Part shown: positions 4,438 to 58,999 of the stretch, piece by piece
Layout: each line of letters opens with the position of its first letter
How positions within the stretch are numbered: position 1 is the stretch's first letter
NCBI GenBank assembly: GCA_907163225.1
Contig: OU015322.1
Location: 310,001-374,000 of the forward strand
Length of the DNA: 64,000 bases
Origin: an uncultured Rhodocyclaceae bacterium
GTDB lineage: Bacteria; Pseudomonadota; Gammaproteobacteria; Burkholderiales; Rhodocyclaceae
Reading direction: 5' to 3'
Program-made: the position numbers and the translations under genes
Notes under the pieces: generated by a model
What the model saw: only the letters and a program-made list of their open reading frames with translations
What the model was told of the DNA's origin: nothing
Database searches by the model: none

Positions 4438-5137
4438 GGCAGGAAAACCGGTGATTGAAGTTGCAGGGCTGGGCAAGACCGTCGACAACGGCGGCGAGCC
4501 ACTGACGATTCTGCAGGATATTTCCTTTTCGGTCATGCCGGGTGAAACGGTGGCCATCGTTGGCGCTTCCGGTTCGGGAAAGTCGACGCTGCTCGGCCTG
4601 CTCGCCGGGCTGGATTCGCCGACGGCGGGCGATGTCCGTCTCGACGACGTGTCGCTCTCGGCGCTCGATGAGGACCAGCGTGCCAAGCTGCGCGGCCGTC
4701 TGCTCGGCTTCGTGTTCCAGTCCTTTCAGTTGCTGCCCTCGCTCAACGCGCTGGAAAATGTCATGCTGCCGCTGGAATTGGCTGGTTTTTCACGGTCGAC
4801 CCTAGGGCCAGCCTCTGTTTCTATGGTCGCAGCAGCCTCCGAGTGGCTGGAACGCGTTGGCCTTGGGCATCGTCTGAAACATTATCCAAAGCATTTGTCC
4901 GGCGGCGAGCAGCAGCGCGTTGCCCTGGCCCGCGCCTTTGCGCCGAATCCCCAACTGGTGCTGGCCGACGAGCCGACCGGCAACCTCGATGCGGCGACTG
5001 GCCAGCAAGTCATCGACCTGATGTTCGACCTGAACGCCAAGCAGGGAACGACCCTCCTGCTGGTTACACACGACGAAGCCATCGCCGCCCGCTGCGGGCG
5101 GGTTTTGCGCATTCAGTCCGGGCGGCTGGTCGGCTAG
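4436..5137 (+). CDS. ybbA: ABC transporter ATP-binding protein, LolD/YbbA type, carrying an in-frame repeat insertion
   Basis: The 233-residue protein has Walker A GASGSGKST, Q-loop FQSFQLLP, signature LSGGEQQRVALARAF, Walker B VLADEPTGNLD and a switch His in LVTHDE. YbbA partners an MacB/FtsX-like permease (YbbP) in lipoprotein- or lipid-related transport. No permease follows here; the next plus-strand gene is a YkgJ-type protein, so the ATPase looks orphaned. Between LELAG and EWLERVGL the helical domain contains about 18 residues (FSRSTLGPASVSMVAAAS) encoded by a long copy of the dispersed repeat (4786-4835). All catalytic motifs are intact. AGGAAGAG about 10 bases upstream supports the start. 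Confidence 0.92.
   Translation: MAGKPVIEVAGLGKTVDNGGEPLTILQDISFSVMPGETVAIVGASGSGKSTLLGLLAGLDSPTAGDVRLDDVSLSALDEDQRAKLRGRLLGFVFQSFQLLPSLNALENVMLPLELAGFSRSTLGPASVSMVAAASEWLERVGLGHRLKHYPKHLSGGEQQRVALARAFAPNPQLVLADEPTGNLDAATGQQVIDLMFDLNAKQGTTLLLVTHDEAIAARCGRVLRIQSGRLVG
4786..4835 (+). repeat. Dispersed repeat, long form, inside ybbA
   Basis: T tract, core CGGTCGACCC at 4793, then TAGGGCCAGC and a 3' arm TCTATGGTCGCAG. From the core onward it matches the copy inside smc at 38 of 43 bases by eye. It is in frame and does not break ybbA. Confidence 0.85.
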
Positions 5138-5146
5138 ACGATTTCA

Positions 5147-5203
5147 TTTTTGGCCATTTTTTCCGGTTGACCGTGGGGCCAGCCTTTTTTTCTGTGGCCG
5201 TGG
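5147..5203 (+). repeat. Dispersed repeat, long form, intergenic after ybbA
   Basis: TTTTGGCC, T tract, core CGGTTGACCG at 5164-5173, then TGGGGCCAGCC, a T-rich stretch and a diverged 3' arm TCTGTGGCCG. It lies 10 bases after the ybbA stop. Confidence 0.85.
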
Positions 5204-5408
5204 AAGGCCCGGTTAGGCAGCGGCTTTTCCGGAAAGGTGCTTCCGCAGCGCCGGGGAGATGGGGCAGGATTTCACCGTGGTTCGTTACGCTCGCGGCCAA
5301 GGGTTGGCGTTGGCCGTATACTGACGGCCGCTCCATTTCTCCCGCGTGATATCAGGTGCCCGTGACTCCTTCCTTTCATTCCGACCAATTTCTTCCGACA
5401 GGTGCTCG

Positions 5409-5936
5409 ATGAGCTCCCGCCGCAGCCTGGCAACGGAGCTTGCCGCCGCTGCCGCGGCCTATCAGACGGCGGACGTCATCCCCCACTGCACCCAGTGCGC
5501 GAAACCCTGCTGCAAACTCGACGCCCTGGTCCTTGAAATGGAATGGAAGCAGATCAAGACCTTGTGGAAGATCAGCGATTCACGCGCCGTGTTCGACAAG
5601 CGGCTTGCTGCCGGAGAAGGCCCGCAAGAAATCAGAGAAAGTGAAGGGCTCTACTTTGTCCATAGCAAGCCGTGCCCAGCCTACGACCAAGCGGGCGGCT
5701 CATGCCAAATCTACGGTCAGGCGCTCAAGCCCGTAGGGTGCTCGGATTTCCCGGTGTACGAAGACCGTGGCAGCATCATGGCCGACCTGCGCTGTGAAGC
5801 GGTGGATCTCAAAGCATTGACGGCCCGGCTTGCCCGCACACTCGGGCCGGATGTACGCATCGTCCAGTCAGCAGACCGGGAATTTCCCTTTCTCGTTACG
5901 CTGTCGGTGCGATCTTCAGGAAGCAAGCGGAAGTAG
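5409..5936 (+). CDS. YkgJ family cysteine cluster protein (putative metal-binding)
   Basis: The 175-residue protein has the YkgJ/UPF0153 cysteine pattern: CTQCAKPCC near residue 26-34, then CPAYD, a Cys in GSCQIYG, GCSDFP and a final Cys in DLRCEA. The family is thought to bind zinc or an iron-sulfur cluster; its role is unknown. The chosen ATG at 5409 follows a weak CAGGTG site. An in-frame ATG at 5346 would add 21 residues of non-conserved sequence. It stands alone, with repeat copies on either side (5147 and 6041). Confidence 0.82.
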   Translation: MSSRRSLATELAAAAAAYQTADVIPHCTQCAKPCCKLDALVLEMEWKQIKTLWKISDSRAVFDKRLAAGEGPQEIRESEGLYFVHSKPCPAYDQAGGSCQIYGQALKPVGCSDFPVYEDRGSIMADLRCEAVDLKALTARLARTLGPDVRIVQSADREFPFLVTLSVRSSGSKRK

Positions 5937-57209: not shown

Positions 57210-57561
57210 TGAGTTCAGCGTGTACAGCTCCGATGGAACGTCTGCATATACGGTTGTAGTTAAACGAAATGGAAATGAATTGTCTGTAGTCTGCGATTGC
57301 AAGGCTGGCTCGATAGGTGATTGGTGTCGTCATAAAAACGGCTTGCTGAATGGCGAGGAAGCCATTTTGGCTGCCAAGGGGAATTTGACTGATGTTCTGC
57401 AATGGGTCAAAGCATCTCCTGTCTATGCAGCAATGTCAGATATTCTTACTGCCGAAAGTCAGCAGAAGGAGGCGGAGGCGTTGCTCAAGAAAGCAAAATC
57501 CAAAGTGCAGGCTGCGAAGCGTGCCGCGGCAAATCTGGTAAACCCTCTTGTTAAGAAATAG
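57199..57561 (+). CDS. SWIM-like zinc-finger protein coupled to ligA
   Basis: The 120-residue protein has [15 protein letters not shown] (residues about 40-54), a CxC...CxH pattern of the SWIM type that binds zinc and often DNA or protein. The tail is helical and Lys/Ala rich ([20 protein letters not shown]). Its ATG lies within the last codons of ligA (GATGAC), so it is translated with the ligase. It shares the low-GC composition of the ligA 3' end. A role with the ligase is an inference from coupling. Confidence 0.75.
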
Positions 57562-57581
57562 ACAGAACTAAGGAATCCGAA

Positions 57582-58451
57582 ATGAAAAAAGTCCGCAAAG
57601 CGGTATTTCCGGTTGCCGGCATGGGAACGCGGTTTTTGCCGGCCACCAAGGCCAGCCCGAAGGAAATGCTGCCTATCGTCGACAAGCCGCTGATTCAGTA
57701 CGCTGTCGAAGAGGCGGTTGCTGCCGGTATTACCGACATGGTTTTCGTCACCGGCCGCTCCAAGCGCGCCATCGAGGATCATTTCGACAAGGCCTACGAG
57801 CTGGAAAGCGAACTGGAAGCGCGCGGCAAGGCGCAGCTGCTCGATTTCGTCCGCAACATGATTCCCAAGAACATCAACTGCATCTACATCCGCCAGGCTG
57901 AGGCGCTGGGCCTTGGCCATGCGGTGCTGTGCGCCAAGCCGGTCATCGGCGACGAGCCGTTCGCCGTCATCCTTGCCGACGACTTGCTCGACGGCAAGCC
58001 GCCGGTCATGAAGCAGATGACGGATGTTTTCGATTATTACCGTTGTTCCGTGCTGGGCGTGCAGGACGTGCCGCGCGCCGACACCAAGAGCTACGGCATC
58101 GTCGATGCCCGCCGGGTGGCCGACCGCCTTGAGCAGATCAATGCCATCGTAGAAAAGCCGAAGCCGGAGGAGGCACCGTCGACGCTGGCTGTCGTCGGCC
58201 GCTACATCCTGACGCCACGCATTTTCCATCACCTCGAAAACATCAAGCCGGGCGCTGGCGGCGAGATCCAGCTGACCGATGGCATCGCTTCGCTGCTCAG
58301 TGAGGAGCAGGTGCTGGCGCATCGCTACGAAGGCGTTCGCTACGATTGCGGCTCGAAGCTGGGCTACTTGCAGGCGACGGTTGTCTTCGGCCAGCGTCAC
58401 CACGAAGTCGGCCCGGCCTTTGATGAATACCTGAAGAGCCTGGTGGCCTGA
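57582..58451 (+). CDS. galU: UTP-glucose-1-phosphate uridylyltransferase
   Basis: The 289-residue protein has the nucleotidyltransferase start [46 protein letters not shown], and [22 protein letters not shown]. GalU makes UDP-glucose for polysaccharide and envelope synthesis. CTAAGGAAT before the ATG is a good ribosome site. It returns to the high GC of the rest of the window. Stop and next start overlap (TGATG). Confidence 0.96.
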
Positions 58452-58999
58452 TGGACGTGCAAAAAGCGCGGGCCATGCTGGCCAATGCCGATCTCATTCA
58501 CAGTGAAGCGGTGGTTCAGGCTGCGGTGACCAAGGTGGCCGCAGAAATTCGCGAACGTCTGGCCGACAAGTATCCGCTGGTGTTGTGTGTGATGACCGGC
58601 GGCGCCGTGTTCTGCGGTCAACTGCTGACCAAGCTCGATTTTCCGCTCGACTTCGACTATCTGCACGCCACGCGCTACGGCCCGGAAACGCAGGGTGGCA
58701 AGATTTCCTGGCGCTCGGCGCCGTGGACGTCGGTCAAGGGGCGCTCGGTGCTGGTTATTGACGACATTCTCGACGAAGGTGTGACCCTGGCTGCCGTCAA
58801 GGAAAGCCTGCGCCGCATGGGGGCCGACGAGGTGCTGACCGCCGTCTTCGCCGACAAGCTGAATGGCAAGGAAAAGCCGATTTCTGCCGACTTTTTCGGG
58901 TTGACCGTACCGGATCGCTTTGTTTTCGGCTTCGGCATGGATGCCGGCGGCGTCTGGCGAAATCTGCCGGCTGTTTATGCCATGAAGGACGATGCATGA
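58451..58999 (+). CDS. hpt: Hypoxanthine-guanine phosphoribosyltransferase
   Basis: The 182-residue protein has the PRPP loop VLVIDDILDEGVTLAAV (acidic pair DD), VLCVMTGGAVFCGQLLTKL and the purine-contacting end ADFFGLTVPDRFVFGFGMD. It salvages hypoxanthine and guanine. A sequence matching the dispersed repeat (58889-58909) encodes FFGLTV, where relatives usually read close to FVGxxV; it may have replaced native bases. The stop overlaps the next start (ATGA). Confidence 0.9.
   Translation: MDVQKARAMLANADLIHSEAVVQAAVTKVAAEIRERLADKYPLVLCVMTGGAVFCGQLLTKLDFPLDFDYLHATRYGPETQGGKISWRSAPWTSVKGRSVLVIDDILDEGVTLAAVKESLRRMGADEVLTAVFADKLNGKEKPISADFFGLTVPDRFVFGFGMDAGGVWRNLPAVYAMKDDA
58889..58909 (+). repeat. 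Dispersed repeat, short form, inside hpt
   Basis: GACTTTTTC, core GGGTTGACCG (58898-58907) and TA. Encodes FFGLTV. Confidence 0.7.

Follow-up and report, generated by a model that had tools for sequence, protein, structure and literature searches.

A genus-specific repeat of Azonexus/Dechloromonas as a candidate uptake signal sequence with the architecture of the Pasteurellaceae signals

Uptake sequences were stated in 2025 to occur in only two families, the Pasteurellaceae, with their uptake signal sequences (USS), and the Neisseriaceae, with their DNA uptake sequences (DUS) (PMC12616744; this and the other papers named here are cited for those parts of them that were available). The Pasteurellaceae USS comes in a Hin type (AAGTGCGGT) and an Apl type (ACAAGCGGT) (PMC12616744, PMC1626085), and two AT-rich segments lie 3' of its core, their centres 12 apart in the Hin type; the DUS is described without flanking motifs (PMC1626085). 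Traits given for USS and DUS are the lack of a significant orientation bias, a somewhat regular distribution, a preference for non-coding DNA with many genic copies, an unusually strong consensus and some close opposite pairs (PMC1626085). Both are described as having dialects around inner cores (PMC12616744), and USS have been reported to favour the ends of genes (PMC2346458). Here we describe a dispersed repeat in a 64-kb stretch of DNA (64,000 nucleotides, hereafter the window) from an uncultured Rhodocyclaceae bacterium, which, judging from its sequence and distribution, is likely to be of the same kind: a candidate third, genus-specific uptake signal sequence.

A dispersed repeat with an asymmetric layout

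The repeat had been picked out in an earlier note on the letters of the window, which listed 14 copies. All 14 coordinates fall within sites detected by our profile, and the claim of at least 14 dispersed copies thus held, yet the list covers only about half of the sites, since the profile matches 27 at a threshold of at least 8 bits and 26 at one of at least 13 bits, the cut used for statistics. Six of the listed copies were correctly placed in called genes (4786, 21951, 30985, 38451, where the gene call is doubtful, 51728 and 58889). The window contains 13 occurrences of the word GGTTGACCG, where 0.58 would be expected, and none of 100 dinucleotide shuffles reached 13 (maximum, 4).

Genome-wide counts and a Markov expectation, two of the checks that had been proposed for the repeat, both bore it out. 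Across the genome, a single contig of 3,463,890 bases, the strict 16-base form TTTTTCNGGTTGACCG was found 210 times (100 forward, 110 reverse) and the relaxed 26-base form CGGTCRAC-n4-W4-n7-AWW 742 times (375 forward, 367 reverse), with no match to the reversed-pattern controls on either strand; the strand totals of both forms show no overall orientation bias. In a 464-kb sample of the same genome, made up of 20 stretches of 20 kb and the window, the relaxed form occurred 92 times, compared with 0, 0, 1, 0, 0 and 0 times in six order-4 Markov simulations. Words of the motif rank top among the enriched 9-, 10- and 12-mers of this sample, and CCCTAGGG comes first among its 8-mers. A profile trained iteratively from 58 seeds arrived at 162 sites with the 13-bit cut, compared with 1 for the reversed profile; this extrapolates to about 1,200 sites per genome. 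Scores within the sample are partly circular, since it served to train the profile; two genomes outside the training, G015 and G050, held 37 and 38 sites per 120 kb, with none in the control. The repeat is thereby confirmed. A strict 19-base form was also present in two stretches of viral contigs.

Read in the orientation of its core (TGCYRCGGTCRAC), the profile consists of TGCYRCGGTCRACCGGAAWWWW, five spacer bases, AAWWWY and then an A-rich tail that is less marked. There is almost no variation in bases 0-7 (CGGTCRAC) except at R (A 0.69, G 0.27). Two A/T tracts follow, at positions 11-16 and 22-27, with AT fractions of up to 0.96 and 0.99, respectively, and with centres 11 bases apart, or about one DNA turn. 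Information spans nearly 40 bases and falls to background level beyond about -7 and +32. The palindrome attributed to the core is there in part, as CGGTTGACCG forms a partial inverted repeat (CGGT..ACCG), but it belongs to the core only, and the element as a whole is asymmetric.

Some copies have further features beside them. At L009:808-850, two opposite sites share a palindromic core (GCCGATTTTTCCGGTCGACCGGAAAAATCGGC), which could form a hairpin or terminator. A second module, about CTAGGGCCAGCCGTTGCTTCTATGGTCGCAG with variants, adjoins the motif core or lies near it in several genic and intergenic copies (window at about 4802, 5165, 20483 and 51755; L011:12824, L012:14175, L022:16983 and L024:12242), and it may be a small repeat, perhaps mobile, in its own right.

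The closest likeness is to the Pasteurellaceae USS. Both have a core followed by two 3' AT-rich segments about one helical turn apart, both occur on either strand, in and between genes, in dialects and, as seen here at five of six coding sites, not as insertions, and GCGGT is found in both cores (here RCGGTC, with R being G in 0.55 of the sites of this genome). In contrast, the core RCGGTCRAC is neither AAGTGCGGT nor ACAAGCGGT, the first A/T tract does not follow immediately 3' of the core but starts 7 bases after GCGGT, and the host is betaproteobacterial, with a receptor and uptake that are putative here. With the Neisseriaceae DUS (GCCGTCTGAA, receptor ComP) the motif shares the character of a genome-wide tag with dialects, and a pilin matching ComP_DUS (PF16732) is encoded in this genome and in 70 of 76 genus members; however, the motif is unrelated in sequence to GCCGTCTGAA and has flanking A/T tracts, and possession of the PF16732 pilin does not distinguish genomes rich in copies from those with few. 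By sequence and host, the motif stands outside both named families.

Short words that are abundant or spread over whole chromosomes also include HIP1 of cyanobacteria, KOPS/Chi, matS and parS. By description, the motif resembles these as an abundant chromosome-wide word, and differs from them in being long and asymmetric and in the balance of its strand totals, counted over the whole genome. No report of the motif, or of transformation in Azonexus/Dechloromonas, was found among the matches listed from the open-licence literature, and the matches listed for the core letters did not, by their titles, concern uptake or these bacteria. The available parts of PMC12616744, PMC1626085, PMC2346458, PMC1939737 and PMC9045156 likewise mention neither the motif nor transformation in this genus.

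Distribution, dialects and placement of the sites

The genus that carries the motif appears to be Azonexus in the broad sense (Azonexus/Dechloromonas). The relaxed form reached at least 100 copies in 37 of its 76 genomes, the present one included, and at least 500 in 12 of those; another 14 genomes had 13-91 copies and 25 had 0-12, with controls of 0-2. Outside the genus, 0-8 copies were found in 373 other genomes of a family search (395 in all) and again 0-8 in 297 others of an order search (300 in all); counts as high as 8 were seen there with the reversed-pattern controls too. Among the genomes searched, the motif is thus confined to Azonexus/Dechloromonas. A midpoint-rooted FastTree phylogeny of 21 genomes, built from five neighbouring genes, places ten copy-rich genomes in one clade, with G029, G064 and G025 (626, 398 and 328 copies) outside it and copy-poor genomes interspersed. 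The rich genomes outside the main clade imply that the trait is older than the clade or has spread, and its loss has apparently occurred on more than one occasion. The copy-poor relative G014 (L123, L139-L143) carries other repeated words, about CGCGGGAATGACG and GGCGGGAATCCAG, with a REP-like look.

The motif has dialects around a shared inner core. The consensus of the present genome is CTrCGGTCAACCsGAAAA, and separately built profiles gave CCACGGTCAACCGGAAAAA for G015, yGCGGTCrAC.GsAAAA for G029, CACGGTCGACCGk for G002 (from stretches partly picked near listed matches) and TGCGGTCGAC for G017 (9 seeds only). Across G000, G015, G050, G029, G002 and G017 the consensus varies at -1, 5 and 8-11, and CGGTC.AC is common to all. 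For G005 (6 seeds), the profile outside the core was too diffuse for a consensus to be given, and G014 yielded no sites. As a measure of presence, the strict form TTTTTCNGGTTGACCG gave an uneven picture across the genus and was set aside in favor of the relaxed form: it is strand-skewed in G002 (8/1), G004 (11/1) and G005 (8/0), where the relaxed form is balanced and reaches 231-270 copies, so that strict counts understate other dialects.

Genes were called with an ad hoc caller, by which 85.9% of the 464-kb sample is coding. Compared with that fraction, the sites were underrepresented in genes (115 of 162, with 42 intergenic and 5 at edges; p 1e-6); in G015 and G050, 25 of 37 and 23 of 38 sites, respectively, were genic. 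The 41 intergenic sites that could be classed were found between convergent (16 sites in 14.3 kb), tandem (23 in 31.9 kb) and divergent (2 in 16.1 kb) genes, a shortage in divergent gaps given the bases available (p 0.001), and G015 had none of its 8 classed sites in such gaps (1.7 of 7.6 kb). Within genes, the codon phase is strongly uneven: 49 of the 59 sites on the same strand share one phase, as do 39 of the 56 on the opposite strand among themselves. Opposite-strand sites lean towards the 5' end (n = 54, mean 0.40), with no lean of same-strand sites (n = 56, mean 0.50).

The sites are spaced more evenly than chance. Over the 142 gaps obtained from the 162 sites, the coefficient of variation was 0.707, compared with 0.926 for random placement (95%, 0.812-1.063), and gaps of less than 1 kb made up 16.9% instead of 32.4% (range, 26.1-38.7%). 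Neighbours closer than 120 bp were found in 2 of the 142 pairs, both opposite and overlapping. Sites were present in 20 of the 21 stretches sampled round the chromosome.

The sampled 20-kb stretch without a site, L019 (1.70-1.72 Mb), holds an island of low GC content with a P4-type phage integrase, a GmrSD endonuclease and a YqaJ recombinase. As a wider test, we took the stretches round 20 of 23 P4-type integrase matches in seven copy-rich genomes; one of these stretches overlaps L019. These contained 45 sites in 385 kb, 37 of them on the higher-GC and 8 on the lower-GC side of the integrase, and their bins with a GC content below 0.57 had 4 sites in 162 kb, compared with about 57 expected at the average of the present genome. 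Bins of like GC carry 21 sites in 128 kb of the 464-kb sample (16.4 per 100 kb), a density at which about 27 would be expected, and 8 in 28 kb of copy-rich relatives. Low GC thus accounts for part, not all, of the scarcity beside integrases; an effect of composition would run the other way and make a motif with A/T tracts commoner, not rarer, where the DNA is A/T-rich. An element of ∼34 kb inside comEC of the copy-rich genome G036 has no site either, the single site of that stretch lying in the 5' part of comEC. This element (L289 from about 1612 to its end, L290 to about 18300) encodes a large serine recombinase, a PolB-type polymerase and D5/VapE-like, CHAT and NADAR proteins; comEC of G057, and perhaps also that of G060, is split at about the same place, in G057 by some 32 kb.

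For six coding sites of the window, ortholog alignments were made that drew on up to 20 further genomes of the genus. Five sites are in gap-free alignments and differ by substitutions, and the remaining one (smc 51722) falls in an indel-rich linker. An origin by insertion, such as that of a miniature inverted-repeat transposable element (MITE), is accordingly not supported for the five, and smc 51722 is uninformative either way.

A candidate uptake signal and its rivals

To our knowledge, the class of sequence that has these traits is the uptake sequence, and the motif agrees with it in most of the genomic tests that had a clear outcome. This reading is favored by the abundance, the dialects, the two phased A/T tracts, the even spacing and the balanced strand totals of the motif, as well as by the gap-free alignments and the scarcity in low-GC DNA beside integrases. 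Among the three options offered in the earlier note (a layout like that of the Pasteurellaceae USS with a different core, a nucleoid-protein or chromosome-organising site, and a very small mobile repeat), the first fits best and is supported in that sense, with uptake as a candidate role. The comparisons make it fairly probable that the motif belongs to a third, independently evolved transformation self-recognition system, genus-specific and with dialects, which would have converged on the Pasteurellaceae architecture (a core with GCGGT in it plus two A/T tracts) and been lost or changed in some lineages. In such a system, a DNA receptor on the cell surface, part of the type IV pilus/competence machinery, would bind the core (CGGTCRAC with its flanks), and the two A/T tracts, one helical turn apart, would help double-stranded DNA to bend or melt on its way into the outer-membrane pore, as has been proposed for the USS (PMC12616744). 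Motif-bearing fragments would be preferentially taken up and then recombined, chance matches would thereby be copied between cells and accumulate, and copies would persist where genes tolerate them and mark the genome as self.

The cognate surface receptor of uptake sequences is ComP or, by prediction, ComN/PpdA. In the present genome, the pilin matching ComP_DUS (E 1.5e-13) is encoded at 1,087,447-1,087,767, directly before a GspH/FimT-like pilin. ComEC was found in 71 of the 76 genus genomes; it is broken, split or short in the copy-poor G010, G023 and G057 and also in G013, G060 and G036, which have intermediate or high copy numbers. A comparison of the ComP-like pilin with plasmids gave a single match, at 35% identity, which was not useful.

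A number of observations weigh against a role in uptake. The presence or breakage of ComEC does not, by eye, track copy number. PF16732 pilins (70 of 76 genomes) and GspH/FimT pilins (PF12019, 69 of 76) occur in copy-rich and copy-poor genomes alike, and the PF16732 pilin adjoins fimT in only some copy-rich ones. No pilin confined to copy-rich genomes was seen among the listed N-methyl pilins of 14 genomes or in a BLAST comparison of 98 pilin-like open reading frames from 40 selected loci. Fewer than 100 relaxed copies are present in 39 of the 76 genus genomes. Weak coding sites score even in copy-poor genomes: the site in the gene between smc and ligA, which we take from its place to be zipA, has 24.1 bits in G034 (84 copies), and G014 has 10.5 bits at smc 53082 and 12.5 bits at hpt 58609. 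Part of the weak coding set may thus be ordinary coding sequence or ancestral. At one locus of ∼20 kb, eight copy-rich genomes keep sites in 207 of 294 alignable directed comparisons (14 of 41 into the copy-poor G014), and this sharing means that inheritance contributes. Perfect and single-mismatch copies numbered 35 and 30 for CGGTCAACCGGAA, 41 and 65 for CGGTCAACCGG, 39 and 130 for GCGGTCAACC and 133 and 711 for CGGTCAAC, so perfect copies of the shorter cores are not the more numerous. Finally, close opposite pairs are few, and G050 has no clear shortage between divergent genes (2 of 14 classed sites in 3.3 of 14.5 kb).

The even spacing and the phased A/T tracts, which would provide curvature, would also suit a motif bound inside the cell by a nucleoid-associated or chromosome-organising protein, and the even spacing counts to that extent against an uptake signal. 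The sites of matS/MatP, SlmA and Noc are models for such a function. Even spacing of DUS and USS was itself once taken as a sign of roles in replication, repair or compaction (PMC1939737). We nevertheless consider a packing protein unlikely, since the consensus shifts between relatives and only 0-12 relaxed copies occur in 25 of these 76 genomes, since the motif is long and lacks symmetry, and since there are few sites in the low-GC DNA next to integrases, which would still need covering; the presence of sites in 20 of 21 sampled stretches shows that the motif is not a regional organising site.

It is considerably less likely still that the motif serves restriction-modification or methylation, or is another general-function word in the manner of the cyanobacterial HIP1. 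Although the core GTYRAC is near-palindromic, and the commonest letters in G002 (CACGGTCGACCGTG) form a palindrome, a methylase site would have no need of information over nearly 40 bases or of two spaced A/T tracts. About as little credit, and if anything a shade less, goes to a regulator or terminator site: 16 of the 41 classed intergenic sites lie between convergent genes, an excess, T tracts are present on one strand and the palindromic double site could fold, but 115 of 162 sites are inside genes, only 2 of the 41 lie between divergent genes, and inspection of single copies reveals no full hairpin. Copies of a small mobile element (MITE, repetitive extragenic palindrome or similar), to which the two overlapping opposite pairs, the module adjoining some copies and the coding site in the indel-rich linker might point, are the least probable reading, and the earlier note's suggestion of a very small mobile repeat is not supported for the motif itself, because information is at background beyond its ends, the consensus is graded, and at five of the six coding sites, to which this comparison is limited, there is no insertion facing an empty orthologous site.

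Sites in the window and outlook

The profile matches of the window, including one below the cut for statistics, are collected in the table.

Table. Profile matches to the candidate uptake signal in the 64-kb window; the strand is that of the CGGTCRAC core
Feature	Position	Strand	Score (bits)	Context
Site	2410..2449	+	36.2	Called gene
Site, variant core GGGTCGACC	4769..4808	-	21.1	ABC-transporter gene; adjoins CTAGGGCCAGCC module
Site	5140..5179	-	45.2	Intergenic
Site	6024..6063	-	34.7	Intergenic
Site	7727..7766	-	29.5	Intergenic
Site	9433..9472	-	21.4	Gene with FGAR-AT domains (purL-like)
Site	12347..12386	+	21.2	Same purL-like gene as 9433 site
Site	13777..13816	-	39.4	Intergenic
Weak site	14017..14056	+	12.7	Below 13-bit cut for statistics
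Site	17887..17926	+	16.2	Outside called genes; within longer reading of TonB-receptor open reading frame
Site	19400..19439	-	16.1	Called gene
Site	20401..20440	-	39.7	Intergenic, adjoins CbiG-domain gene
Site	21936..21975	-	33.4	TP_methylase gene
Site	23135..23174	+	25.8	CbiD gene
Site	26656..26695	+	47.5	Intergenic
Site	30979..31018	-	48.2	Peptidase U32 gene
Site, strongest of the window	33614..33653	+	50.4	Intergenic
Site	38447..38486	-	42.5	Doubtful gene call
Site	44583..44622	-	42.4	Intergenic
Site	51006..51045	+	27.7	smc; gap-free across 16 aligned genomes (own included)
Site	51722..51761	-	37.1	Indel-rich smc linker; by eye recognisable in 5 copy-rich relatives
Site	53082..53121	+	20.3	smc; gap-free alignment
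Site	54353..54392	+	23.9	Gene between smc and ligA; gap-free alignment
Site	58609..58648	+	15.5	Phosphoribosyltransferase gene (hpt); gap-free alignment
Site	58874..58913	-	31.0	Same phosphoribosyltransferase gene as 58609 site; gap-free alignment
Site	61812..61851	+	29.1	glnD-like gene
Site	62012..62051	-	15.4	Same glnD-like gene as 61812 site

The ligA gene of the window (54816-57209) has no motif site and an atypical codon use. Its best matches in the genus mostly share 52-70% identity (84% in G062), compared with 80-91% for the adjacent smc across 16 genomes, and by these sequence measures it is probably a foreign replacement in place. Elsewhere in the window (41258-41480), two identical tRNA-Arg(ACG) genes lie within a 79-nt exact direct repeat, 144 nt from start to start.

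If confirmed, the motif would constitute a third uptake-tag system beside those of two unrelated bacterial families. With a third lineage, for which 76 genomes and several dialects are available, one could test how such systems originate, including whether the A/T architecture is required by the pore, how receptor and signal co-evolve, and how a signal spreads and decays. If this reading is true, these bacteria are predicted to be naturally transformable, and the motif would be a tag for transforming them.

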